Shown here piece by piece: positions 12,168-27,076 of a stretch of 38,233 nucleotides of DNA (its first letter is position 1; each line of letters starts with the position of its first letter). A model generated the notes under the pieces. The model was not told the origin of the DNA. It saw only the letters and a program-made list of their open reading frames with translations, and searched no databases. The DNA is from Vulcanimicrobiota bacterium. Its GTDB lineage: Bacteria > Vulcanimicrobiota > Vulcanimicrobiia > Vulcanimicrobiales > Vulcanimicrobiaceae. The stretch is taken from positions 1-38,233 of the forward strand of contig PMOG01000037.1 of NCBI GenBank assembly GCA_003161555.1. Direction: 5' to 3'. The position numbers were made by a program, and so were the translations under genes.

Positions 12168-15107
12168 TTACAGGCGCAGGCCGAAATCTTCAGCATCGAC
12201 CGTGAGGTTGGGGTTGTAGTACGGATCGCGCGCCGCCCAGCGCGGCCAGCGGCTGCGAATCGTGCCGACCTCCTCCATCGCCCGAGCGACCTTGCCGGGC
12301 GTGTCGTCCTCGCCGCGCGTCTTCGATTCGTAATGGTACAATCGCGCACGAGGCACGAAGACATTGCGATAGCCCGCGCGGTGGAGTTTGAGACAGAAGT
12401 CAATGTCGTTGAACGCAACCGCCATGCCTTCGTCGAGACCACCGACCTCCTCGTAGATGCTCTTGCCGACCATCAGACACGCTCCGGTCACCGCCAGATA
12501 GTTCGTATCGAGCTGCAGCGCGCCGTGGTAGCCGGGCGCATCGCCGGGCAGGAAACGATGCACGTGCCCCGCGAGGCCAAGGATTCCGAGCACCACACCG
12601 GCATGCTGCACGGTGCCGTCACCGTACAGGAGCAGCGCGCCGACCGCCCCGATGTGCTTGCGGCGGGCCTGGCCGAGCATCGCCTCCATCCAGTCCGGCG
12701 AAATGACTTCGGTGTCGTTGTTGAGCAGCAGGACGTACGGAGCATCGGTGGAGCGCACTGCGACGTTGTTGAGCCGCGAATAGTTGAACGGCGACGGGTC
12801 GCGGATGACGCGGAAGCGGGACGGCTCGCGGCCGAGCCAATGGTCGAGGACCTCCTCGGTCTCGCGCTCGCGGCTGCCGTTGTCGATGACAATCATCTCG
12901 AACGCGCCGTATGCGGTTCGTTCGAACACCGAAGCGATGCACGGTCGCAGCAAATCGGCGCGATCGCGGGTTGGGACGATCACGCAGACGCGTTCGTCCC
13001 CCGGCACAGCGAAGCGGACCTCGACGCCGGCGGCCACGGGCGCAACGGTGACCGCTTCGCCGCGGCGCTGCAGCGCAACCTCGACGGCCAGCGCCAAATC
13101 GGCTTTCTCGACCGCGTTGAACGGTCCGCGATGGCACAGCACTTCCGCGACGTGCACGATGCGTTCGGTACGCTCGGTCACGCGCAGCAGTGCCTCGTAC
13201 CAGCGCGCGCTTTCGAAGACGTCCCGCACACCGCCCGCACGTTCGAGCAGCGAACGGCGCATTGCACACAGATGTCCCCCATAGTCGCGCGTCAGCAGCG
13301 TTTCGGGCGACCAGTCCGGCTTGAACCACGGTGCGGAAGCGACCCCATTTTCGTCCAGCCGGTCCTCATCGGAGTAGATCACATCGACGTCGTCCTGCGC
13401 CGCCAGCGCGCAGGCAAAGAGCGCGTGCGGTTCGAGGCGGTCGCCGGGGTCGAGTGCGATGACGAAGTCCTCATCGCCGAACCAGGTGCCGCCGGGCGGC
13501 ACGCGCTCGACGCGCTCGTCGATCGCCAGCACGCCCGCGAGCTCCGGCGGGTCTTCCGATTCGTCGCGCCCGCGTCGATCGTCAGCGAGAACGCGAACTG
13601 ACCAATGGCCATAGAGCTGCTGCTGCAACGTGCCCACCGTCGCGGCGATTCCGGCGGCCTCACGCCCGCGCACGTCGATCACGATCGAGAACGTGACCGT
13701 GCGCGGCAGAAAGCGCGCCATCGCGCCGACGCGGTCGGCGTCCTCCGTTCGCAGCCGGTGGTGCTGACGGTAGAGCTGATAGGGGTCACCCAGCGAAGCC
13801 AGTTTGGCCGCCCGGTCCTTGGTGTCCGGAATCGGTACCGGGTCTTCGAGCGGGCCGATGCCCAACCGGCGACGCAGCGCGAACCATCGGTCGCGCAATT
13901 GCCAGAAGCGGCTCGTCCGCATCGTATCGATGGTGCGCCGCTGGCGCTGGACCAACGGGTAGAGATAGGCCACGTGGGCGAGCAGCGCATCGCGCGAACG
14001 CCCGTCGTCTTGGGCGGGGATCACCTCGATTGCGTCGAGCGTGCGCGCCGCGACGTGCCGCCATCCGCCGCGCGCGTCCAGATACGTGCGCCCATTCTCT
14101 GCCAGCGCGTCCAGTTGTGCCGTATCGGGTAAGCTCGCGACGGCGGTCTCCCAGCCGTCATCGGCGACGATCATGCCGCCGCCCGTTTCGCGCACAAAAG
14201 CCGCGACGCCGCGCGCGTTGGCCCCGCACAGCACGGCCTTCCCGTACGACCACGCTTCGATGACCTCGGGCGCAAAGGCCAGCCCCTCGCCGGCGACCGC
14301 CACCGCAGCGGCATAGGCAAAGAAAGCGGCGCGATCGCGCTCGTCGACGCCGTCGAGTCGTACGATCGATGCCGTTTCGACGTTCGTCAGTCCGGCCGGC
14401 GTGCCGTTCCCGACCAGCAGCACGTAGGGGCGGCCGTGGGTAACGCGGCGTACGCGCTCGGCATGCAGGTCCGCGCGCGGCACCGTATCGGCGGCGAGTC
14501 CGATGACGCGCGAGCGCGCACGCGCCTCGGGGCCGAACAGCTGAGCCACCAGTCGAAGCTCTGCGTCGGTCGTGCAGAGGATCGTTCGCGCGCGCGCGAC
14601 CGCTTCGGCGACTTCCCGCAAATGCACCACGGGCTCGTCATCGAGCAGCGGCACCAGCAGCGATCGTTCGGCAACCTCGGCAATGGCGCGCACCGTCGTC
14701 GGCACGCTCACGTCGATGAAGAGAAAAGCCTCGTAACGGTCGCCCGTCGCGCGCACTTGCGCCAGCAGATCCGGACAGCGCAGACGTTCGTCGAGCAGGG
14801 GTCGTGACGGTTCGACGACGGCCGGATTCTCGCGCGCCGCTGCGATGACGGCTTCTTCGTAGGCGACGCGGTCCGGGGCGAGCACGCGGAAGCGGTACAC
14901 CGGAAACGGCTCGGTGTGGTCGAGGCCGGCACGATAGAAGTTCGCGTCGGACGCTTCGGCCGTCGTCGTCGTGGTGAACACCTCGACCGCCAGCCCCTCG
15001 AGTGCGAGATGCGTCGCGTACGCGAAGGCGAAGCGTTCTTTGCGGCCACGCAGGTCGCGTCCGAAATAGGGTGCGACGATTGCGACGCGGTGCGCGGTGC
15101 GGCTCAT
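12168..15107 (-). CDS. Large multidomain glycosyltransferase (N-terminal GT4-like, C-terminal GT2)
   Basis: N-terminal RVAIVAPYFGRDLRGRKERFAFAYATHLA; central FWQLRDRWFALRRRLG linker; C-terminal VIVPTRDRADLLRPCIASVFERT...VIDNGS...LLLNNDTEVISPDWMEAMLG. Confidence 0.88.
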   Translation of the reverse strand: MSRTAHRVAIVAPYFGRDLRGRKERFAFAYATHLALEGLAVEVFTTTTTAEASDANFYRAGLDHTEPFPVYRFRVLAPDRVAYEEAVIAAARENPAVVEPSRPLLDERLRCPDLLAQVRATGDRYEAFLFIDVSVPTTVRAIAEVAERSLLVPLLDDEPVVHLREVAEAVARARTILCTTDAELRLVAQLFGPEARARSRVIGLAADTVPRADLHAERVRRVTHGRPYVLLVGNGTPAGLTNVETASIVRLDGVDERDRAAFFAYAAAVAVAGEGLAFAPEVIEAWSYGKAVLCGANARGVAAFVRETGGGMIVADDGWETAVASLPDTAQLDALAENGRTYLDARGGWRHVAARTLDAIEVIPAQDDGRSRDALLAHVAYLYPLVQRQRRTIDTMRTSRFWQLRDRWFALRRRLGIGPLEDPVPIPDTKDRAAKLASLGDPYQLYRQHHRLRTEDADRVGAMARFLPRTVTFSIVIDVRGREAAGIAATVGTLQQQLYGHWSVRVLADDRRGRDESEDPPELAGVLAIDERVERVPPGGTWFGDEDFVIALDPGDRLEPHALFACALAAQDDVDVIYSDEDRLDENGVASAPWFKPDWSPETLLTRDYGGHLCAMRRSLLERAGGVRDVFESARWYEALLRVTERTERIVHVAEVLCHRGPFNAVEKADLALAVEVALQRRGEAVTVAPVAAGVEVRFAVPGDERVCVIVPTRDRADLLRPCIASVFERTAYGAFEMIVIDNGSRERETEEVLDHWLGREPSRFRVIRDPSPFNYSRLNNVAVRSTDAPYVLLLNNDTEVISPDWMEAMLGQARRKHIGAVGALLLYGDGTVQHAGVVLGILGLAGHVHRFLPGDAPGYHGALQLDTNYLAVTGACLMVGKSIYEEVGGLDEGMAVAFNDIDFCLKLHRAGYRNVFVPRARLYHYESKTRGEDDTPGKVARAMEEVGTIRSRWPRWAARDPYYNPNLTVDAEDFGLRL

Positions 15108-16456
15108 CGCTCCGGCACCGGCACGTCGGCCACGTACGTCGCGGCCCGGCGCCGCTCGAACAGCCGGCGCGCGGCGACCTCGGCGACGGCGACACCGGTA
15201 ATCAGCCAGTAGACCGACGCGACCTTCGGAAAGAACAGCAGATCGTCGAAGATTTGGTGCGTGGCGAGCGCGATCGTCGCGCCGAGAGCGCCGACGATGA
15301 GCGGGCGGCGAATGCCGCTGCGCGCAAGCGTCACGATCGCTGCCGCAAAGAGCCCGATCGTCGCGGCCAGACCGATCAGGCCGCCTTCGGCCAAACTCTG
15401 CAGGTACAGGCTGTTCGCGTGCGTCCGCACGCCGCTGAGCCCGACCTCAGCCAGATCGAGTTCGTAGTTTCCGGCCCCCACGCCGACGATCGGTGACGTG
15501 CGCCAGAGTTCGATCGCGGCGTGCCAAAGTTGCGAGCGATTCGCGAGGTGATCGGCGGCCTGCGGCGCCTGATCCAGCGAAAAGTATCCGGACGGCACTC
15601 CGGCGCGCACGGCCGCGGCCACGGATGCGGCCAGCACGACAGCCACGCCCGCGACGTAACGCCAGGCCACGGCCTGCGGCGGGCGCAGGACAACCAAGAC
15701 CGCACCCACACCGATCAGGGCGCCGAGAATTCCAGCTCGCGAAACGGTCAGCAAATCCGTGACGGCGGCGAGGACCAGCACGACCGCCAGGATCCGGTCG
15801 CGATGTACGAGGGCCCGCGCGACGAGCACGGGCAGCACGATGTCGAAGTAGCCCGCCAACTGGTTCGGACCTTCGAGGGCACCCGCGATGCGTGGAAACA
15901 CCCACGCGTTCCCGTGCAGAAAGATGCCGCTGTGCGCGCCGACGAGGTACTCGGCGAGCGCTGACAGACAGACCAGCGCGACGCCCGCCTCGAGCGTGCG
16001 CCAGAAAGGCCGGTCGTCGGGATCGGTCGCGAACGCGACGATCGCGGCCAGAAAGAGCAGCAGGTACTCGCCGTTCTTCAAGGCTTCGCGCAGGACCGCG
16101 CCCAGATGCTGGGCGTGCAGGGCACTCAGCGCGATCGCCGCCAGCAGTACGGCGAACGCCGTCACCATCACGCGCACGGGAGCGGTACGCAGCGCGGCCA
16201 GGTCGGGCCGCGAGAACGCCAGCGCGACCAGCAAGCCGGCTACGCCGGCTTTCAACGTCGTGATCGTGGTTGGGCCGACGTAGCGCGGAAAGTCGAACGG
16301 CGCCAGCACGAGCAGCGCGGCGACACCCAGCGCCGGCCGGCGGCGGGTGAGGAGCCCGACTCCGACCGCGCACGCCAAATAGATCAGCGCGCTGACAAGG
16401 TCGATCGGAACGTGCGTTTCGTGACGCAGCGTCACCGTCCACGGGTGAAGGATCAC
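15104..16456 (-). CDS. O-antigen ligase/polymerase family polytopic membrane protein
   Basis: Polytopic; ...AGALEGPNQLAGYFDIVLPVLVARAL... and PIVGVGAGNYELDLAEVGLSGVRTHANSLYLQSLAEGGLIGL, typical Wzy/WaaL C-terminal pattern. GTG at 16454-16456 overlaps the MurJ stop (GTGA). Confidence 0.87.
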   Translation of the reverse strand: MILHPWTVTLRHETHVPIDLVSALIYLACAVGVGLLTRRRPALGVAALLVLAPFDFPRYVGPTTITTLKAGVAGLLVALAFSRPDLAALRTAPVRVMVTAFAVLLAAIALSALHAQHLGAVLREALKNGEYLLLFLAAIVAFATDPDDRPFWRTLEAGVALVCLSALAEYLVGAHSGIFLHGNAWVFPRIAGALEGPNQLAGYFDIVLPVLVARALVHRDRILAVVLVLAAVTDLLTVSRAGILGALIGVGAVLVVLRPPQAVAWRYVAGVAVVLAASVAAAVRAGVPSGYFSLDQAPQAADHLANRSQLWHAAIELWRTSPIVGVGAGNYELDLAEVGLSGVRTHANSLYLQSLAEGGLIGLAATIGLFAAAIVTLARSGIRRPLIVGALGATIALATHQIFDDLLFFPKVASVYWLITGVAVAEVAARRLFERRRAATYVADVPVPER

Positions 16457-17994
16457 GGCAGTGGGACGAGATCGCGAGGGCGGCGGCGCAAGAGCAGATC
16501 GGTCGCGAGCTGCAATTCCGATGAGTCGACAAGGCGCGCCAGCGCGAGGAATACGAAGGAGCCGAACAGCAGGTGCTCGCCCAAGCTCGTGATGCGCGCG
16601 ATCGTGTTCGGAGCGGGCGGCGGCCGGCCGACCTGCACCGCGGCCAGCGCGAAGGCCATCACGATCGAGCACGCGCCGACCTTGAGCAGCGTGACCAGGA
16701 TCGGCCGCACGTCGAAGCCGCCTAGGGCGCGCTGCGCGGCGGCGACGAGGGCCAGGGTCTGGAGCGATTGCGAGGTGGCGTTGGCAAGCAGCAGCCCGCG
16801 CGCACCCAGCGACGGCAGCCACGCGAGCGACAGCGCGACGTTGAGCGCGACGGTGAACACCGAGATCAGAATCGCCGTTCGCACCGCCCCGCACGCGTAG
16901 AGGCAGCGCGTCAGCACGACGTTCCCCGCCAGCGCTACCAGACCGACCGCGGCGAACGGCAGCAGCTGCGCGCAGAGCACCGTGTCTTCCGGCGTGAACG
17001 CACCCCGTTCGAACAGCGTCTGCACGATCGGTCCCGCGAGCATGCACAGCCCCCATGCCGAGGGTAGGGTGAGGAAGATCACCATCTGCAGCCCGGTCAC
17101 CAGGCTGCGCCGCATCGCAGGACGGTTCTTGTGCGCGAACTGACCGGCGAAGAGCGGGAAGATCACGGTCGCGATCGCGGTCACGAAGATCTGCTGCGGA
17201 AAGCCGACGACCTTGACGGCGAAGTTCATCGCCGAGATCGTCCCCGGGCTCATCACCGAGGCGAAGAAGCGGTCGAAGAAGAGCGCGATCTGTCCGGCCG
17301 CCGAGCCGATGGCGATCGGTCCCAGCACGTGCAGCAGCCGTACCAGCCCCGGGTGCCGCAGATCGACCGCGAAGCGGAAGGGCCGCAGCTGCAGAAACGG
17401 GGGAATCATGACCGCGAGCTGCGCGAAGGCTCCGGCGAGCGCACCGGCGACCAGCGCGTAGGGTCCCAGCCGCGACTGCGTCAGCGAGACGATCGCCACA
17501 ATGCAGAGGTTGGCGACGAATCCCTGTACCGCGGCGGCCCAGAACCGGTGATAGGCATTGAGCAATGCCGCGACCACGCCGCAGAGGCTGGTCGCGATGA
17601 TCGTCGGCATCAGCCAGCGCGTCATCACGATCGCGGTCAGCGCGTGGCCGTGGGGGAAGCGCGCGATCTGCGGCACGTACCAGGGCGCGAAAATCGCCCC
17701 GGCGATCGCGAGTACGCCGAGCACGACCACCAGCACGACGATCAGCGACGACGCGAGGCTGACGGCTTCGTCGCGACGGTCGGTCGTGACGTAGTCGCTG
17801 AACAGCGGGACCAGCGCCGTTACCAGCGCGCCGCTGAACACGCCGAAAAGAATGACCGGAACGACGGATGCGGCGAGGAAGGCATCCAGCTCCCACGACG
17901 CGCCGTAGAATTTTGCGTACACGACCTCGCGCACGAAACCGAGCAGCGTCGACGCCAGCGTTGCGGCGGCGACGAGCGCGGTCGACGTCGCCAA
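16453..17994 (-). CDS. murJ: MurJ/MviN-like lipid II flippase
   Basis: LVAAATLASTLLGFVREVVYAKFYGASWELDAFLAASVVP; MNFAVKVVGFPQQIFVTAIATVIFPLFA; LARCLYACGAVRT-like region. Start uncertain (TTG 17994 is the best short choice; the frame is open further upstream). Confidence 0.87.
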   Translation of the reverse strand: MATSTALVAAATLASTLLGFVREVVYAKFYGASWELDAFLAASVVPVILFGVFSGALVTALVPLFSDYVTTDRRDEAVSLASSLIVVLVVVLGVLAIAGAIFAPWYVPQIARFPHGHALTAIVMTRWLMPTIIATSLCGVVAALLNAYHRFWAAAVQGFVANLCIVAIVSLTQSRLGPYALVAGALAGAFAQLAVMIPPFLQLRPFRFAVDLRHPGLVRLLHVLGPIAIGSAAGQIALFFDRFFASVMSPGTISAMNFAVKVVGFPQQIFVTAIATVIFPLFAGQFAHKNRPAMRRSLVTGLQMVIFLTLPSAWGLCMLAGPIVQTLFERGAFTPEDTVLCAQLLPFAAVGLVALAGNVVLTRCLYACGAVRTAILISVFTVALNVALSLAWLPSLGARGLLLANATSQSLQTLALVAAAQRALGGFDVRPILVTLLKVGACSIVMAFALAAVQVGRPPPAPNTIARITSLGEHLLFGSFVFLALARLVDSSELQLATDLLLRRRPRDLVPLP

Positions 17995-18040
17995 CCGCCT
18001 CGGGGTGGGGGTTTCCGCGACGACGGTGAGTCGCGGCGGG

Positions 18041-18727
18041 CTAATGCGCGCCGACCCCCCGCAGCACGGCCGGAATCGTGCGCGCGATGATGGCGAGATC
18101 GCCGCCCGGCGACCAGCCGTCGATGTAGGAGTTGTCGAGCGCCATCCATTCCTCGAACGCGAGGTGCGAACGGCCCGATATCTGCCACAAGCAGGTGACA
18201 CCGGGTTTCACGACCAGCCGCCGCAGCGCGTAGGCGTCGTAGTGCGCGACCTCTTCGGGGAGCGGCGGGCGCGGTCCGACGATCGACATCTCGCCGGTCA
18301 AGACGTTCACGAAGTTGGGCAGCTCATCGATCGATGTGCGGCGCAAGAACGACCCCAGCGCGTGAAGCCGCGGATCGGCGCGCATCTTGAAGACCGGCCC
18401 GTCGGCTTCGTTGAATTTGCGCAGCTCGGGCAGCATCGCGTGGGCGTCGCGGACCATCGTGCGCAGTTTCCACATCCGGAAGCACCGCGCGCCGCGGCCG
18501 ACGCGTTCTTGCCGAAAGAGCGGGTTTCCGCCGCTGACGACGACGATCCCGAGCATCGCGCCCAGCACGATCGGCGCGGTGACCGTCAGGATCGCCAGCG
18601 AGAGACCGATGTCGATCGCCCGCTTTGCTGGAACGTACCAGCCCGGCCGCGCCGGAGCTGCGGGAAAGAGCACGCCGGCCGGCAGGTTGAGAGCCTCGCC
18701 CCGCAGCCGCAGCTCGGTGGCGCTCAT
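18041..18727 (-). CDS. Bacterial sugar transferase (undecaprenyl-phosphate sugar phosphotransferase, WbaP/WcaJ C-terminal-type)
   Basis: KRAIDIGLSLAILTVTAPIVLGAMLGIVVVSGGNPLFRQERVGRGARCFRMWKLRTMVRDA...LRRTSIDELPNFVNVLTGEMSIVGPRPPLPEE. Confidence 0.95.
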   Translation of the reverse strand: MSATELRLRGEALNLPAGVLFPAAPARPGWYVPAKRAIDIGLSLAILTVTAPIVLGAMLGIVVVSGGNPLFRQERVGRGARCFRMWKLRTMVRDAHAMLPELRKFNEADGPVFKMRADPRLHALGSFLRRTSIDELPNFVNVLTGEMSIVGPRPPLPEEVAHYDAYALRRLVVKPGVTCLWQISGRSHLAFEEWMALDNSYIDGWSPGGDLAIIARTIPAVLRGVGAH

Positions 18728-19851
18728 CGCGCCCCCGCGCCCAGGATCGCCTCAATGCGCCGGCCGACGTGGCCGAGGCCGTCGATGACGCCGAGGTCGG
18801 CGCCCGGTGCGGTTCCGTATTCGAGGTACGGCACGTATTCGCGCGTGTGATCCGTCCCTGGCTGGGTCGGATCGCAGCCGTGGTCGGCCGTGAAGATCAG
18901 GCCGTCGCCCGGACGGATTCGAGCCAGGACCTCGGGCAGCCGCGCATCGAGCCGTTCGAGCGCTTCCCCGTAGCCCCGAACGTCGCGGCGATGTCCGTAC
19001 TTCGTATCGAAGTCGTTCAGGTTCACGAACACCAGTCCATGATTGATAGCATCGGCCAACTGGAGCGCGCGGTCGAGCGCCTCGCCATTGTCGGCGACTC
19101 GCACGGACGACACGATCCCATGACCGCTGTAGATATCACAGATCTTCCCGACCGCATGGACCGCTACACCCTGCTCGTGCAGCCGGTCGAGCACGGTAGG
19201 CGGCGGCGGGATCGCATAATCCCGGCGGTTCGGGGTCCGAGCGTACGCACCCGGCGGCCCGGCGAAGGGCCGTGCGATCACGCGGTTGACTTCATTGGGC
19301 GGCACGAGCATCGCCCGGGCCCGTTCGCACCAGTCGTACAACGTTGCCAAGGGCACGGTCGCTTCATGCGCAGCCACCTGAAAGACCGAATCGGCCGAGG
19401 TGTAGAGGATCGGCCGGCCCGTCCGCTGGTGCTCTTCGCCCAGTTCGGCGATTATTTCGGTCCCGGAGGCCGTGCGGTTGCCCAGCGGCGGGAGGCCCAC
19501 GATCGCCGTGAAGCGGTCGACGACCTCAGGTGGAAAGCCGTCGGGGTACGTCGGAAAGGCCACCTCGGTGATCACCCCGACCATCTCCCAATGCCCGGTA
19601 ATGGTATCCTTGCCTTTTGAGCGTTCTCTAAGCCGAGCCACCGTAGCGGACGGCTCCCCCTCCGCTGATACGCCGCGAATCGCGGTGATGTGGCCCAGGC
19701 CCAGCCGTGCGAAGTTCGGCAGTTTCAAGCCGCCTACACGCTGCGCGACGTTTGCGATCGTATTGGCGTTCGTTCCGTCGTGGTATTCCTGCGCATCGGG
19801 AAGTGCACCGACTCCTGCAGAGTCCATGACGAATGCGAGAATGCGCGGCAT
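18724..19851 (-). CDS. deoB: Phosphopentomutase
   Basis: MPRILAFVMDSAGVGALPDAQEYHDGTNANTIANVAQRVGGLKLPNFARLGLG; GKDTITGHWEMVGV; FVNLNDFDTKYGHRRDVRGYGEALERLD; FTADHGCDPTQPGTDHTREYVPYL. Confidence 0.96.
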   Translation of the reverse strand: MPRILAFVMDSAGVGALPDAQEYHDGTNANTIANVAQRVGGLKLPNFARLGLGHITAIRGVSAEGEPSATVARLRERSKGKDTITGHWEMVGVITEVAFPTYPDGFPPEVVDRFTAIVGLPPLGNRTASGTEIIAELGEEHQRTGRPILYTSADSVFQVAAHEATVPLATLYDWCERARAMLVPPNEVNRVIARPFAGPPGAYARTPNRRDYAIPPPPTVLDRLHEQGVAVHAVGKICDIYSGHGIVSSVRVADNGEALDRALQLADAINHGLVFVNLNDFDTKYGHRRDVRGYGEALERLDARLPEVLARIRPGDGLIFTADHGCDPTQPGTDHTREYVPYLEYGTAPGADLGVIDGLGHVGRRIEAILGAGAR

Positions 19852-19910: not shown

Positions 19911-21653
19911 ATGCTGCACATGCGCATCCTCGTTCTCCTCACGCTGGCATGCGGTTTTTTTGTGACCGCAGTTACTCGCGCCGAGGCGGTCCCTTCGACC
20001 AGCCTCGACGTCACGGCGAACAGCGTCGACTTCTTCTACAACCGCTACATCGTGACCGCCGACGGCAACGTGCGCGTGCGGCTCTCCGACGGTACCATAA
20101 TCCGCGGCGAAACGTTCACGATGGATCTGAAGCTGAACCGCTATTTAGTGGCCGGCGACGTCCACGTCGACGGGCCGACGATCCATCAGGTCGGCGCGGC
20201 GCTGGCCGGCTATCCGGACCTCGACCGCACCTACTTTCTGCCGGCTGCCGGCGCGCCCGAGCGCGACACGTACTACGGCTTGAACTGGAAGGATCCGCAC
20301 GTCGGGCGCGAGCAGCCCGGCGACGCGTATCACTTCCCCGACCTCACCGGCGAACGTCCGTACATTAAAGCGATCGGCGCGCGCATCGTCCCCAAGACGA
20401 ACGTTTTGTTCACGCGAGCCGAAGTGTACACGGCCGGTGTGTATCTGCCGACGCCCCACTACGCGGTTGTCTTTTCGCCCAATTCGCACTTCTTCGAAAA
20501 CGCGTTCCCGGGGGCCAGGGCCGATGTGAGCCTGCCCTTCAACGCCTCGGCGCACAGCCTCTCGGCGCTCCATCTGCGGAACGATCAATACAACGGCACC
20601 TACCTCGCCTTCGACCAGCACTTCGTGTGGGACAACGCCTACATCGTTGCCGCGATCGATCCGCTCACGCAGGAGCAGCGTCAGTACAATCTGCTCGGCT
20701 ACGAACGGTTCACGCCGAAGTTCGAGAGCCGCCTGTTCCTGCAAGAATCGGCCGGCGGTCCCGGCATCATCTATCAGCCGATCAACGCTGCCGGATACGC
20801 GCAGCTGCAGCTCAACGCCGGGCTGCGCCGCTCGGGGCTCAGCTACACCGAGGACAACTACTGGCAGTACCTGCTGGGGCTGCCGGACGTTCAGTTCGAT
20901 ACGATTGCGACCGCGGACTACGATCCGCGCTGGCGCGAGCATCCGATGGACGCGTCGCTGACCTGGACGGGGTTTGAGAACCGGCTCTTCACGCACGCGC
21001 CGATCCTGTTCCGGCTGCGCAGCATCGTCGGCATGGCGCACGACATCTACGGCTACGGCGGCTTTCCGAACGAGCAGCCGGGGCCGCCGGATTCGTTCTA
21101 TCACACCTTCGGCGGAACGATCTACACCTCGGGGCTGAAGCTCGGGCCGTATACGCTGACCCCATCGTACGACCGTCAATGGACCTGGTTCAATCTACCC
21201 CATGAGACCGACGCCCGTGACGCGCGCCTCTCGCTCTCACGCGGCTTCGCCCGGCAGCACGTCAACGCGCTGCTGACGTACGAGGTACGAACGACCAACG
21301 ACTATTGGGGCGCGGCCCAGTTGGCGGCGTATCCCAATTACGGGGTCATCACCACGCCCTTCGGCTCGTACACGACGCCCGACGCATTCCGCGGTTTGGC
21401 GACGTCGCGCGGCTGGACCGGCGGTCTGGTGTACACGCCGACGCAGTACTTCACCATCAACCTCCAGCTGGCGCGCTTCTACGACTTCCCGGTGCCGGTG
21501 CCGGGGTACTTCGGGCAGGAGCCCTGGCAATTCACCGGCGACGTGCGCTTCCGCATCTCGCGCCAAGTTCAGGTCGACCTCACCCGGATGTACTACTTCA
21601 ACTTCGCCAACCAACGTTGGTCGCCGCAGTTCGGGATCCAGTTCTCACCATGA
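19911..21653 (+). CDS. LptD/OstA-like outer-membrane beta-barrel protein (copy 1)
   Basis: Signal peptide MLHMRILVLLTLACGFFVTAVTRAEA; OstA-like repeat SLDVTANSVDFFYNRYIVTADGNVRVRLSDGTIIRGETFTMDLKLNRYLVAGDVHVDG; long aromatic/alternating barrel region ending QRWSPQFGIQFSP. Confidence 0.75.
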   Translation: MLHMRILVLLTLACGFFVTAVTRAEAVPSTSLDVTANSVDFFYNRYIVTADGNVRVRLSDGTIIRGETFTMDLKLNRYLVAGDVHVDGPTIHQVGAALAGYPDLDRTYFLPAAGAPERDTYYGLNWKDPHVGREQPGDAYHFPDLTGERPYIKAIGARIVPKTNVLFTRAEVYTAGVYLPTPHYAVVFSPNSHFFENAFPGARADVSLPFNASAHSLSALHLRNDQYNGTYLAFDQHFVWDNAYIVAAIDPLTQEQRQYNLLGYERFTPKFESRLFLQESAGGPGIIYQPINAAGYAQLQLNAGLRRSGLSYTEDNYWQYLLGLPDVQFDTIATADYDPRWREHPMDASLTWTGFENRLFTHAPILFRLRSIVGMAHDIYGYGGFPNEQPGPPDSFYHTFGGTIYTSGLKLGPYTLTPSYDRQWTWFNLPHETDARDARLSLSRGFARQHVNALLTYEVRTTNDYWGAAQLAAYPNYGVITTPFGSYTTPDAFRGLATSRGWTGGLVYTPTQYFTINLQLARFYDFPVPVPGYFGQEPWQFTGDVRFRISRQVQVDLTRMYYFNFANQRWSPQFGIQFSP

Positions 21654-22519
21654 TGCGCCGCTTGTCCGTGGTTCTGACCTCGGTCGCCGTCCTGATCCTG
21701 GCGCTGCCCTCGCTGGCGCAGCCGCAAGGCACGTTGATTCGCTTTACCGGTCAACTGCTCGACGTGCGCAACGGCTACGCGTACTTCAGCAGCGGCGACG
21801 CGTTCAAGCTTTCGCCGTCGTACAAGGTCGCGGACTACGACACCGGCGCTTCGACGACGCTGCAGCCCGCGGCGAAGATCTTTGCGCGCGCCGTTCTCGA
21901 CCCGGCAACGAAGGAAGTCGTGGAACTGGACATCACGACCCGCCGGCTGCCGAGCGACAGCGCGTACAGCACCGACGTGCAGCAGGCGATCGCGACCAAA
22001 CCGGCGATCGTCCTCGCGCCCGAGATCAAGGGCATCCCGGTCACCGGCAAGGAGGTCGCGGTCGAGTTCATCGTCACCGTTCCGCCTTCGACGCCGGTGA
22101 ACGCCGACGTGTACATCAGCACGGACGCCGGCGGTTGGAATCCGCAGGAAATCAAACTCGACCGGGTCGAGGGCGACCGCTATCGCGCCGTCCGCCGGCT
22201 CGCGTCGGGCACGCGCTTCGTGTTCCGGGTGACGCGCGGCTCGTGGAACTCGGTCGAGGTCGGACAAGACGGGCTCGAAGTGGCGCCGCACGCCTTCTTC
22301 GTGCGCGAGTCCGACGCGCAGTCGTGCCCCGCTACCGTGTACGCCTGGTCCGACAACCGCAGCGGTGCGCCGCAGGCGGCCCAGCCCGGCGCGGTGCCGA
22401 CCCCGTTCAATCCTAATCCGTTTGGCGGCAACCCACTCTATCCGCCCTCACGCGCGACGCCGCCGGGCGGCTTCCCGACGCCGCATCCGGCCCCGCCGCC
22501 GAACCGTCCTCCGCCGTGA
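21650..22519 (+). CDS. Exported protein with CBM20/E-set-like domain and Pro-rich tail (copy 1)
   Basis: Signal peptide MMRRLSVVLTSVAVLILALPSLAQ; VTVPPSTPVNADVYISTDAGGWNPQEIKLDRVEGDRYRAV...FVFRVTRGSWNSVEVGQDG. ATGATGA overlap with the upstream stop. Confidence 0.75.
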   Translation: MMRRLSVVLTSVAVLILALPSLAQPQGTLIRFTGQLLDVRNGYAYFSSGDAFKLSPSYKVADYDTGASTTLQPAAKIFARAVLDPATKEVVELDITTRRLPSDSAYSTDVQQAIATKPAIVLAPEIKGIPVTGKEVAVEFIVTVPPSTPVNADVYISTDAGGWNPQEIKLDRVEGDRYRAVRRLASGTRFVFRVTRGSWNSVEVGQDGLEVAPHAFFVRESDAQSCPATVYAWSDNRSGAPQAAQPGAVPTPFNPNPFGGNPLYPPSRATPPGGFPTPHPAPPPNRPPP

Positions 22520-24132
22520 GGCGCGCCCTGGCGGCGGCGCTCGTGTGTACCGCGTGCGCGGCCGTGCCGCAGGCTGCTCGAGCCCGCGCATCGGCGACGC
22601 TCGAGGGCGGCACGATCTCGTTTTTTGCCGATACGCTCTCGGTCGTCGCGCGCGACCGCGCCTCACTGCGCTTGATCGACGGCACGCACGTCAGCGGTGA
22701 TGCGGCATACGTCGATCTCAAGAACGACCGCGCCGTGCTGGCCGGCCACGCGCGCATCGAGCACGGCGGCACGACGGTGTCGGCCGACGCGATCGCGGTC
22801 GATCTGGACGCGAACCGGGTCGACCTGCTCGACGTCGGCACGGGGGTCAGCCGCACGACGCGAACGCTGGGGAGTCCCGTGCACGCGGAAATCGATGCGA
22901 AGCGTTTTGCGTTTCCGGACGTCGACGACCGCTACGCCTTCATCCGCTCGCGGCACGCCGCGATTACGCCGCGCGCGAACGTGCGCTTTTCCCCGGCCGC
23001 GTTCCCGACCTCGGTCGGCGGCGTGCCGGTGCCGTCGTACCTGTACACGTTTGCCACTGCGGCCGGTTTCGGTCAAACCACCTTGCCCGGTGCGACCTTC
23101 GATCAGCCCTACGGGCTCATCGGAACGCCGACTTCGCTGACCTCCGCCCACGCGCGCTGGGAGAACAACGACGGCGCGCTGGCGCTGCAGGAGCAGCTCG
23201 CGTCGGGCGATACGGCGTACGCGACCGGCGCGATCGATGCGCCCTTTCGCGGTACCGGTTCCAGCGGCTTCAACGCCTATCAGCGGTTGGGGACGCGCTA
23301 TACGTTTTTGGTCGACGGCAACGCGGCATTCGGCAGCCGCGAGGGTGACGCCACGCTGGGCGCGGCGTTCGGCACGGCCGGCGGGCGGCTCACGTATCAC
23401 CTGCAGAACGGCGGCTACTCGTCGTTCGATGCCAGCCTGCGCACGCCGGATCTGGAGTTGGTAGGTGGAAACACGCTGCGCCTGACCGCCGACGTCGGCT
23501 ACGACGCCCAACGCGGCGGCGATCTGTACCCGTACGTCGTGCTGCCCGGCGGTCGCGCCTACGGAACCGTGTGGCGCCACGGTCTCGACGCTTTTCTGGC
23601 GACGCCGATCGTGCACGGTCCGCTCGGCACGAGCATCGGTGTCACGCTCGACGGCAGCCGCACCTGGTACGCCTTCCCGCGGCATGCCGACGCCGTCACC
23701 GCGTCGGCCAACGCCTCGAAGAAGCTCACCCGGAATTTCTCCCTGTTTGCGGGCTACCAGAACACCTGGTCCTCACAAGTCTATCCGGGAGACCAATCGC
23801 TGTTCTTTCCGATCCCCTCCGCACCGCTCTTGACGCCCGACGGGATGCCATACTACGGCTGGTACGCCTACACCGGCGCGGCGGTCGCGCGCTACATGAA
23901 CCTCGACCTGCAGTACGCGCCGCCGACCAGCAGCACGTCGCTGCGTCTCTCGGCGCGGCACACCGACGACTTCTATCAGTTTGATGGTCTCGGGCGTCCG
24001 GTTTGGGAGCTGCGGCTCGATGCCCAGTTCCGTCCCTTTCCCAACGTCGGCATCGCACTGGGGCGCTCGTACGACTTCGGCTGGGGCGGCCGGCGCTGGC
24101 TGCCCGGCTGGAGCTTCGCGATCACCCCGTGA
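22516..24132 (+). CDS. LptD/OstA-like outer-membrane beta-barrel protein (copy 2)
   Basis: Signal peptide; SATLEGGTISFFADTLSVVARDRASLRLIDGTHVSGDAAYVDLKNDRAVLAGHARIEHGGTTVSADAIAVDLDANRVDLLDV; barrel-like tail ending RRWLPGWSFAITP. GTGA overlap with the upstream gene. Confidence 0.73.
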   Translation: MRRALAAALVCTACAAVPQAARARASATLEGGTISFFADTLSVVARDRASLRLIDGTHVSGDAAYVDLKNDRAVLAGHARIEHGGTTVSADAIAVDLDANRVDLLDVGTGVSRTTRTLGSPVHAEIDAKRFAFPDVDDRYAFIRSRHAAITPRANVRFSPAAFPTSVGGVPVPSYLYTFATAAGFGQTTLPGATFDQPYGLIGTPTSLTSAHARWENNDGALALQEQLASGDTAYATGAIDAPFRGTGSSGFNAYQRLGTRYTFLVDGNAAFGSREGDATLGAAFGTAGGRLTYHLQNGGYSSFDASLRTPDLELVGGNTLRLTADVGYDAQRGGDLYPYVVLPGGRAYGTVWRHGLDAFLATPIVHGPLGTSIGVTLDGSRTWYAFPRHADAVTASANASKKLTRNFSLFAGYQNTWSSQVYPGDQSLFFPIPSAPLLTPDGMPYYGWYAYTGAAVARYMNLDLQYAPPTSSTSLRLSARHTDDFYQFDGLGRPVWELRLDAQFRPFPNVGIALGRSYDFGWGGRRWLPGWSFAITP

Positions 24133-24722
24133 GTGCCGCACTGTTCGCCGCGGCGACTGCGGCCGTCGTCTTTCGCATCGTCCCGCTGGCCTGCAGCGGC
24201 GACCATCTCGCGGTCGCAGGCGGCGGCGTTTTGCGGCTCGCCGAGGGAAGCTCGTGCGCGGCGTTCGTTCCCGGACGCGCAACCGGCGTGACGGTCGGCG
24301 ACGACGGGCGGGTCACGCCGCATGCCGCCGGCTCGGATGCCCTTTCGGCCGCGAAGATTCCCCGCACCGCCTACGTCTTCGCGCCGGCGGTGGAGAGTGA
24401 CGCGGATCAGACGGCGCTGGTCACGGTGCAGATCGAGGTCAGCGTGCCGCCGCGCACGCCGCCCGGTGACGACATCTACATGAGCACCGACCGCAGCGAC
24501 TGGTCGCCCAGCGAAATCCGCATGGATCGCGTCGACCCGCGCCACTTCCGGTACGCGCTGCAGGTCCATCGCGGCGCGCGCGTCGCCTTCCGCATCACGC
24601 GCGGCTCGAACGCGACGCTCGAGCGCGACGTGAGCCGCGCCTTGCCGCCGGCGCACATCGCCGCCGGCGAGCCGAACGCGCGGGTGACCGTCGTGGTCGC
24701 CGCATGGGCCGACATCGATTGA
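24129..24722 (+). CDS. Small protein with CBM20/E-set-like domain (copy 2, paralogue of 21650-22519)
   Basis: VSVPPRTPPGDDIYMSTDRSDWSPSEIRMDRVDPRHFRYALQVHRGARVAFRITRGS aligns directly with copy 1. GTGA overlap with the upstream gene. Confidence 0.7.
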   Translation: MSAALFAAATAAVVFRIVPLACSGDHLAVAGGGVLRLAEGSSCAAFVPGRATGVTVGDDGRVTPHAAGSDALSAAKIPRTAYVFAPAVESDADQTALVTVQIEVSVPPRTPPGDDIYMSTDRSDWSPSEIRMDRVDPRHFRYALQVHRGARVAFRITRGSNATLERDVSRALPPAHIAAGEPNARVTVVVAAWADID

Positions 24723-27076
24723 TGGCGAGCCGCTCGCGCGCGTTCGCCCTGCGCGACAACGTCGCGGTCAACGCGCTCTGGTTGGGGATCCAATTCCAGG
24801 ATACCGCGATCCTGGCCATCGTCGTCCCCGCGCTGCTGCTGAAGCTCGCGCCGCAGTCGCACACGGGAGTGCTGGCGGCGCTGGCTACGGCGGTCGCCGC
24901 GGCCTGGGTCTTCATCCCGCCGATCGCCGGCGCGATCTCCGACCGGCTGGCGGCGCGCGGCGGCGATCGCCGCAAACACACCGCGGTCGTGCTGTTCGCC
25001 GACATCGCCGCGCTGATCGCGATGTCGTACGCGCACGCAGTCGGTTCGCTGGGCGTCGAGGTCGTCTGCGCGGGCGCCGCGATCGCGGCCGCATCATCGA
25101 TCTATCAGGCGCTGCTGCCGGAGATCGTGCCGCGCAGCGCCTGGGGTGCCGCGTCGGGCGCGCGCGGCGCGATGACGCTGATCGGGACGGTCGGCGGCCT
25201 GGCCGCGGCCGCCCTGCTGCCGCCGGACCGCGTGCTGCTGCTGATGGCGGCCGCGATCGCGCTGGTGCTGCCCAGCCTGGCGGCGATCCCGCGCGCCCGG
25301 CGCGAAGAGAAGCGCTCGGAACGCGCGGTCGTCCGCGATTGGCACGATCTCAACGTCACGCTGATCGCGCGCGGCTTCGTCGTGCTCGGCATGTCGCTGC
25401 TGTACACCTACATCCTGTACTTCTTCAGCGACGTGCTGGGCGTCCACAATGCGAGCTTCGGTACCGGCATGGTGGCCGGCGCGGCGCTCATCGGCGCGAT
25501 CGTCTCGAGCGTGATCGCGGGGCTGCTCTCCGACCGGATCGACCGCCGCTGCGTGGTCGCGCTGTCGGGCGTGCCGATGGTAGTCGCCGCGCTCGGCTTC
25601 GCGTTGTCGCCCGACCAGCATCTGATCTTTCTCTATGCCGCGCTTTTCGGGCTCGGCTACGGCGGCGTGTTCTCGGTCGGGTGGGCGCTCGCGCTCGACT
25701 CCATCCCGGCGCTCGGCGATGTGGCGCGCGATCTGGGCATCTGGGGAACGCTCTCCAACCTTCCCGGAATCGCGGCGCCGGCGATCGGGGCCTGGGTGAT
25801 CGCGCACGGCGCGACCCCGCGCCAAGGTTATCAGTTGCTCTTCGCGCTGGCTGCGGCGTCGTTCGCGATCAGCTCGCTGGTGGTACTGCGCGTCGGGAAG
25901 CGCCCGATCTCGTCGCTGGGATCGCTGCTGATGCTGACACTCATCGTGGTCACGCACCTGCAGTGGCTGGCACTGAAAGTCCGCATCCGGCAGTTCGGCC
26001 GGCTGCCGTTTCGCCGCGGGCCGACGGTACTGATCGCGAACCACCAGCACGAGGACGAATCGGAGATCGTTGCGCTGCGCTCGTTCGCGCAGGGTAGCTG
26101 GGGATCGAGCACGCTGACGGCGTCGTCGCGCCGCATGTACGAACCGGGTTTCTTCGCCGCACGTCTGCGCGCGTTCGCATGGATGCAGACGATCAACGCC
26201 GGTCCGTTCTTTCGTCTGCTCGGGATGCTGCCGCTCGAAAACGAACTCTCGTCGCGCCCGCTGCGCAGCTTGGCGCACACGCTGGTGCGCGCGCACGGCG
26301 ACCTCCCGCTCGACAACGTCTTTCGCGAAGACGCGCGCGCGACGCTTCCCGCCGGTGCGCAGATGCTGGGCGATTTTCTGACGCCGCACTTCTTCGCCGA
26401 ATCGTCGCGCTACATGAAGCTGTCGTTCGTGCGCGAGCCGTATCGCCGCGAGCTGCTGGTCGCACTGCGCTCCGGCGTCGACGATGACATCGCGGCGATC
26501 GTCGACATCGTGCAGCGGGGCGCGACCTTCTTCGTCGCGCCGGAGGGCTTCTACAGCACCGACGGGCACTTGCGGCCGCTCAAGGGCATCGTCGAGCATC
26601 TGGTGCCGATTGCCGACGTTTGGTTTGCGGCGATCGCGTTCGACACGTTCCGCGGGCGCCGGCTCTCGATGCTGTACCGGGTCGTGCAGCCGGCCGATCC
26701 GCGCGATCTGGGTGCTTCACTCGCCGCGGCACGTCCGGTAACGACGACCGCCTTGCTGGCGACCTGGATGCTGGCGATCGACTTGCCGTTCTCAGCGCAG
26801 GAAGCGCGCGACGCCGTAACGCGCGCGCGTGACACCTTTCCGCCGGGCGCTTTCGTCGATCCGGAGCTGCGCGACATCGACCGCTGCGTCGGCGAAGCGC
26901 TGGCGAATTTGGTGCGGCGCGGCACGCTGCTCTTCGACGGCGCCGCGTATCGGCTGACCACCGCCCGCCGCGACCCGCGTTTTCCGCTGGTCGACGACAT
27001 GCTCGCCTACCACGCAACGTTTCTCGCCGAAACGGTCTCCGCGCTGCATGCGCTGGCCCACGCCGAAGCCAGCTAG
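24722..27076 (+). CDS. MFS transporter fused to PlsC-like acyltransferase domain (LplT-Aas-like architecture)
   Basis: 790-aa ORF (786 aa from ATG 24722): polytopic MFS half, then RRGPTVLIANHQHEDESEIVAL (NHx3D-type motif) and TFFVAPEGFYSTDGHLRPLKGIVEH (PEG motif). TGATG overlap with the upstream gene. Confidence 0.75.
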   Translation: MASRSRAFALRDNVAVNALWLGIQFQDTAILAIVVPALLLKLAPQSHTGVLAALATAVAAAWVFIPPIAGAISDRLAARGGDRRKHTAVVLFADIAALIAMSYAHAVGSLGVEVVCAGAAIAAASSIYQALLPEIVPRSAWGAASGARGAMTLIGTVGGLAAAALLPPDRVLLLMAAAIALVLPSLAAIPRARREEKRSERAVVRDWHDLNVTLIARGFVVLGMSLLYTYILYFFSDVLGVHNASFGTGMVAGAALIGAIVSSVIAGLLSDRIDRRCVVALSGVPMVVAALGFALSPDQHLIFLYAALFGLGYGGVFSVGWALALDSIPALGDVARDLGIWGTLSNLPGIAAPAIGAWVIAHGATPRQGYQLLFALAAASFAISSLVVLRVGKRPISSLGSLLMLTLIVVTHLQWLALKVRIRQFGRLPFRRGPTVLIANHQHEDESEIVALRSFAQGSWGSSTLTASSRRMYEPGFFAARLRAFAWMQTINAGPFFRLLGMLPLENELSSRPLRSLAHTLVRAHGDLPLDNVFREDARATLPAGAQMLGDFLTPHFFAESSRYMKLSFVREPYRRELLVALRSGVDDDIAAIVDIVQRGATFFVAPEGFYSTDGHLRPLKGIVEHLVPIADVWFAAIAFDTFRGRRLSMLYRVVQPADPRDLGASLAAARPVTTTALLATWMLAIDLPFSAQEARDAVTRARDTFPPGAFVDPELRDIDRCVGEALANLVRRGTLLFDGAAYRLTTARRDPRFPLVDDMLAYHATFLAETVSALHALAHAEAS

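Follow-up and report, generated by a model that had tools for sequence, protein, structure and literature searches.

An LptD-like barrel and a CBM20-like partner form a conserved gene pair throughout the Eremiobacteria and may constitute an additional outer-membrane translocon

Of the barrels that insert a large amphiphilic glycolipid into the outer leaflet, LptD has been described best. LptA/OstA-type domains are suited to amphiphilic lipids, and CBM20 domains usually bind alpha-glucans. Outer-membrane barrels with periplasmic partners are also described in polysaccharide systems: EpsX of Myxococcus, which is AlgE-like, works with the separately encoded OPX D1D2 protein EpsY in a Wzx/Wzy-type gene context (PMC9601211), and GfcD of the Escherichia coli group 4 capsule is a large barrel whose periplasmic partners GfcB and GfcC have an uncertain role in export and which was compared with LptD by its own authors (PMC8592465). 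Searches of the open-access literature, a scope outside which most subscription papers lie, returned no description of the family of LptD-like or duplicated LptD proteins reported here.

The window analysed is a stretch of 38,233 nucleotides from a Vulcanimicrobiota bacterium (contig PMOG01000037.1), in which four genes, named barrel1, small1, barrel2 and small2, lie among the following neighbours:

15104-16453, minus strand: Wzy_C O-antigen ligase/polymerase family protein
16453-18156, minus strand: MurJ-family flippase
18041-18727, minus strand: WbaP-type sugar transferase (Bac_transf)
18724-19851, minus strand: phosphopentomutase-like gene (Metalloenzyme), a divergent neighbour conserved in many relatives
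19911-21653, plus strand: barrel1, exported LptD-like putative outer-membrane barrel of 580 aa, from its class-wide family and its model
19998-20243, plus strand: predicted OstA/LptA-type N-terminal β domain of barrel1, residues 30-111 (model pLDDT ~64-88 by block; aligned weakly by hhalign with the LptA-like region in the LptD candidate of the same genome)
21650-22519, plus strand: small1, exported, with an N-terminal β domain, a CBM20-like domain and a Pro-rich tail, 289 codons
22049-22354, plus strand: CBM20-like domain of small1, residues ~134-235 (homologous domains pass the CBM_20 cut-off; CBM20 structures are nearly all of the best matches)
22516-24132, plus strand: barrel2, paralogue of barrel1, 538 aa (family profile matches LptA)
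22693-22812, plus strand: LptD_N-like segment in barrel2, residues 60-99 (matched weakly by Pfam, E 0.015; matches of the barrel2-family profile to LptA)
24129-24722, plus strand: small2, paralogue of small1, 197 aa, a CBM20-like domain with neither the complete N-terminal domain nor the tail
24704-27076, plus strand: fusion of an MFS transporter and a ~390-aa domain, the next gene after small2

With LptD, the barrels share the order of signal peptide, OstA/LptA-type β domain and barrel, and LptD structures are the best PDB fold matches of barrel1; yet the barrels are smaller (538-580 aa), neither barrel1 nor barrel2 matches an LptD model of Pfam or NCBIfam, the barrel1 profile gives no match to E. 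coli LptD, the partner gene is a different one and a separate LptD candidate is encoded in the same genome. The small proteins are related to the CBM20 starch-binding domain by their C-terminal fold, by an invariant first Trp and by homologous domains of relatives that pass the CBM_20 cut-off, but those of the window fall below this cut-off, appear to have replaced the second binding Trp and lack a catalytic domain, and small1 has in addition an N-terminal β domain and a Pro-rich tail. The arrangement is like that of EpsX/EpsY in its barrel, separately encoded partner and gene context, whereas the barrel here is LptD-like and the partner CBM20-like; from GfcD with GfcB and GfcC it differs in the folds of both the barrel domain and the partners.

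The four genes lie head to tail on one strand and, as an initial annotation made from the DNA alone had claimed, in the order barrel1-small1-barrel2-small2 at 19911-24722, all four being open at these positions by an ORF check. Successive genes overlap by 4 nt each (ATGA between barrel1 and small1, then GTGA twice), and small2 and the MFS gene by 19 nt; because of these overlaps the four genes are read as one coupled operon. The 4-nt overlaps suggest coupled translation of barrel1-small1-barrel2-small2, and the MFS gene may be part of the same operon. Among the regions compared, this fusion gene is confined to the genus of the window. Its ~390-aa C-terminal half, unrecognised by Pfam, carries NHxxxx and PEG motifs and by eye looks like a PlsC-type acyltransferase.

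The two barrels align over their whole length (hhalign Prob 100, E 2e-76, 511 aligned columns) at ~22% identity, and both end in similar RW.P....(F/I)..P tails (RWSPQFGIQFSP and RWLPGWSFAITP), as had been noted from the DNA. For single barrel sequences Pfam gave almost no signal, OstA_2 and LptD_N matched few members of the barrel families and weakly, PF04453 (LptD) had no match above its cut-off across the 149 genomes of the phylum, and sequence-only searches of the PDB with barrel1 or with the LptD candidate of the same genome yielded nothing useful. With the barrel2-family profile, the PDB does yield LptA chains (best E 5e-4). Likeness of the barrels to the LptD candidate of their own genome is weak (hhalign Prob 34 for barrel1) and limited to the N-terminal part. 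Only five relatives' loci qualified for use, so the alignments behind the structure models were shallow, and the AlphaFold2 model of barrel1, built from nine sequences, has low global confidence (pLDDT 59.5, pTM 0.43), with a confident all-β N-terminal domain and ~19 further strands (versus 26). When this model was compared with the PDB by Foldseek, ranks 1-14 were all LptD (E 4e-12 to 7e-8, prob 1.00) at TM-scores of only ~0.3, and the result therefore backs an LptD-like architecture but not its detail. Low-confidence models and sequence profiles together lend some support to an LptD-like fold of jelly roll plus large barrel, and the OstA-type N-terminus and LptD-like character first proposed for the barrels are supported by the barrel2-profile LptA matches, the weak Pfam matches, the β domain of barrel1 and the Foldseek ranking.

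Lipopolysaccharide genes occur across the phylum, with LpxC in 143 and LptF/G in 148 of the 149 genomes, and cells of Vulcanimicrobium alpinus were described with an LPS-covered outer membrane (PMC9758169). The LpxC cluster holds LptC-like and LptB-like genes and one LptF/G, while in all six genomes read, that of the window included, the gene after a second LptF/G encodes a protein of ~760-1035 aa. The copy in the genome of the window is ~860 aa long (L134:7438-10032, contig C200). Although Pfam LptD misses this protein throughout the phylum, its homologue in family f3 matches NCBIfam LptD (1.7e-6) and its profile can be aligned with E. coli LptD at the TxC/linker region (E 1e-4, a single comparison); on these grounds it is a candidate for the canonical-type LptD of the genome. 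Since it adjoins LptF/G elsewhere in the genome, barrel1 is ruled out as the only LptD, the barrels are taken not to be the LPS LptD, and insertion of LPS into the outer leaflet by them becomes less likely. The proposal that the small protein functionally replaces LptE is not supported: no small gene was seen beside the LptD candidate, LptE (PF04390) was undetected in all 149 genomes whether or not they have the module, and identity of the small protein with LptE itself is ruled out by the lack of a Pfam match and of linkage to the LptD candidate. In the regions read, the module is unlinked to lpt or lpx genes.

Small1 consists of a signal peptide-like start, an N-terminal β domain (residues ~30-96) and a C-terminal domain with the invariant W163; only the last is common to small1 and small2, which is without most of the N-terminal domain and without the Pro-rich tail. 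The paralogy of the two, also claimed at the outset, is confirmed by a search of the genome with small1 that recovers small2 (E 1.3e-16). The AlphaFold model of small1 (pLDDT 59.0, pTM ~0.4) gave 38 Foldseek matches at E <= 1e-3, nearly all of them CBM20-bearing proteins. Pfam CBM_20 matched 5 of 35 relatives weakly (best E 0.016), and proteins of f3 and f7 have homologous domains that lie above the cut-off or near it (L146 and L143 pass). A CBM20-like fold, predicted in the first annotation, is hence well supported for the small proteins by a low-confidence model together with sequence profiles. W163 corresponds to the first Trp of CBM20 starch-binding site 1; the second appears by eye to be V/R, at a position outside the printed alignments, so sugar binding is unproven. 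The small-family profile is weakly similar to BT3088, a glycan-binding protein of the cell surface (E 0.17); matches of the CBM20-like profile to ETV6 were set aside as low-score repeats. Two Cys in the N-terminal part of small2, residues 22 and 43 (24192-24257), may be joined by a disulphide; the small2 copies of L031 and L033 have both of them too. In f3, other CBM20-like proteins (L140, L141, L142, L146 and L147) share a gene neighbourhood beside a conserved MDTLDFVKVTEAAALAASRW... protein, with no adjoining barrel.

All relatives in the genome collection belong to Candidatus Eremiobacterota/WPS-2. Across the 149 genomes of this phylum, barrel1 relatives occur in three families (f1, f2 and f3) of one class and give marginal matches only elsewhere; the small family is distributed in the same way, save for one distant match to an esterase from outside the class (L143:1760-3070), whose N-terminal CBM20 domain scores 31.4 bits. 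Barrel1 was found in 47 of the 48 near-complete class genomes (at least 95% complete and at most 5% contaminated; counted by hand). The small gene lies directly downstream on the same strand, with 2-256 nt separating the aligned segments, in 73 of the 76 genomes where both could be placed, which upholds the initial annotation's expectation that the gene pairs are conserved as neighbours. The arrangement differs in G118, where 5 kb separate the two genes, in G126, where they are on different contigs, and in G130, where the barrel listed comes after the small gene close to the end of a contig and probably belongs to the barrel2 type. Barrel1-small1 is thus a class-wide core module of the Eremiobacteria.

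In the barrel1 regions read (counts by hand), MurJ was present in 13 of 13 from f1 and f2 and a WbaP-type transferase in 14 of 18, and Wzy_C, phosphopentomutase and GT2 genes were frequent; of these neighbours, MurJ and phosphopentomutase may serve housekeeping functions. The Poly_export domain of Wza-type OPX proteins was found neither in the barrels and small proteins nor anywhere in the genome of the window, which is 73% complete. An OPX protein is encoded elsewhere in the genome in 31 of the 48 near-complete class genomes; in the other 17 the domain was undetected, a domain-search negative being no proof of absence, and barrel1 and small are retained in every one of these 17. Mfd and a SurA-like chaperone lie near the module in several genomes (L078:14561-19283); SurA also neighbours E. 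coli lptD, possibly by coincidence.

Taken together, there is about an even chance that barrel1-small1, joined in some lineages by the older paralogous barrel2-small2, is an additional LptD-like outer-membrane translocon for a glycan or glycolipid, separate from the LPS LptD and served by a CBM20-like periplasmic partner. In such a translocon, the N-terminal OstA-type domain would receive its cargo, an amphiphilic glycan or glycolipid, in the periplasm, perhaps by docking to the bridge of LptA/LptC type that already serves LPS, the barrel would hand the molecule to the cell surface, and the CBM20-like domain would hold its glycan part or gate the barrel. The outer-membrane location of the barrel, its direct contact with the small protein, the glycan or glycolipid substrate and the use of the Lpt bridge are what we infer. 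The narrower version, a core class-wide translocon for a glycolipid in which a second LptD-type barrel family branches off a common Lpt bridge and a CBM20-like subunit stands where LPS export uses LptE, is offered tentatively, as less likely than not. The additional-translocon reading is supported by the LptD-like fold, the OstA profile similarity, the separate LptD candidate, the CBM20-like partner, the tight linkage of the pair, its near-universal presence in the class, the polysaccharide neighbours and the OPX-undetected genomes. It is weakened by the low-confidence models with their low TM-scores, the missing profile match to E. coli LptD, the weak match to the LptD of the same genome, the apparently lost second Trp and the possibly housekeeping nature of MurJ and phosphopentomutase. 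If it is true that a second LptD-like family, core to a whole class, nearly always comes with a protein of sugar-binding type, the mechanism of LptD would have been adopted a second time, for a different surface molecule; the pair would point to an undescribed route by which the Eremiobacteria, which are soil bacteria, place a sugar-containing molecule on the cell surface.

Barrel1 could instead export a WbaP/Wzy-type polysaccharide in the manner of EpsX or GfcD; the small protein would then be its periplasmic partner and the LptD-like domain an ancestral remnant. The adjoining WbaP-type transferase, MurJ-family flippase and Wzy_C genes, the retention of the pair in 17 near-complete genomes lacking a detectable OPX and the precedents of EpsX/EpsY (PMC9601211) and GfcD/GfcBC (PMC8592465) all suit this explanation, which we nevertheless consider rather unlikely, as an OstA-type domain fits amphiphilic lipids better than a free polymer, 31 of the 48 genomes also have an OPX protein, and Wzy_C may be the O-antigen ligase, with a product that is exported as LPS. 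Alternatively, barrel1-small1 might be a second LptD for LPS itself or a variant of it, with small1 as an LptE-like plug; this would agree with the phylum-wide LpxC and LptF/G, with the LPS-covered outer membrane reported for V. alpinus (PMC9758169) and with the failure to detect LptE in the phylum. That a separate LptD candidate adjoins LptF/G, that the module is apart from lpt and lpx genes in the regions read and that the barrel family is confined to one class while LPS genes are phylum-wide make it improbable.

Least expected is a passive or uptake porin for glycans such as alpha-glucans, in which the CBM20-like protein would be a surface or periplasmic binder and export would play no part. 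The usual alpha-glucan ligands of CBM20 and the weak profile similarity to BT3088 favour it, but near-universal retention in the class, an OstA-type domain on the barrel and the failure to recognise a degradative enzyme or TonB-dependent receptor beside the module among the genes scanned leave it a slim chance.

The two modules had been seen as a tandem duplication of a two-gene unit; their paralogy and tandem order stand, but the event is ancient. In a tree of 45 barrel rows, the barrel1 rows of all three families form one clade (98/98) and every barrel2-type row falls outside it, so the duplication predates the families of the class; a recent tandem duplication is ruled out by this tree, and the small1 rows show the same pattern, forming one clade (98/98) in a tree where small2 rows do not resolve. 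The barrels being about a quarter identical likewise indicates an old duplication kept in tandem. All four genes are also present in the relative genome G087 and both modules stand in tandem in f2 (L081 and L082), while most genomes lack copy 2 (barrel2-small2). The barrel2-type gene of f3 is located elsewhere, and in the regions read no adjoining gene was recognised as a small gene; by eye, this gene (L085, L086, L144 and L145) adjoins aminotransferase-like and NAD-epimerase-like genes in place of the small gene.
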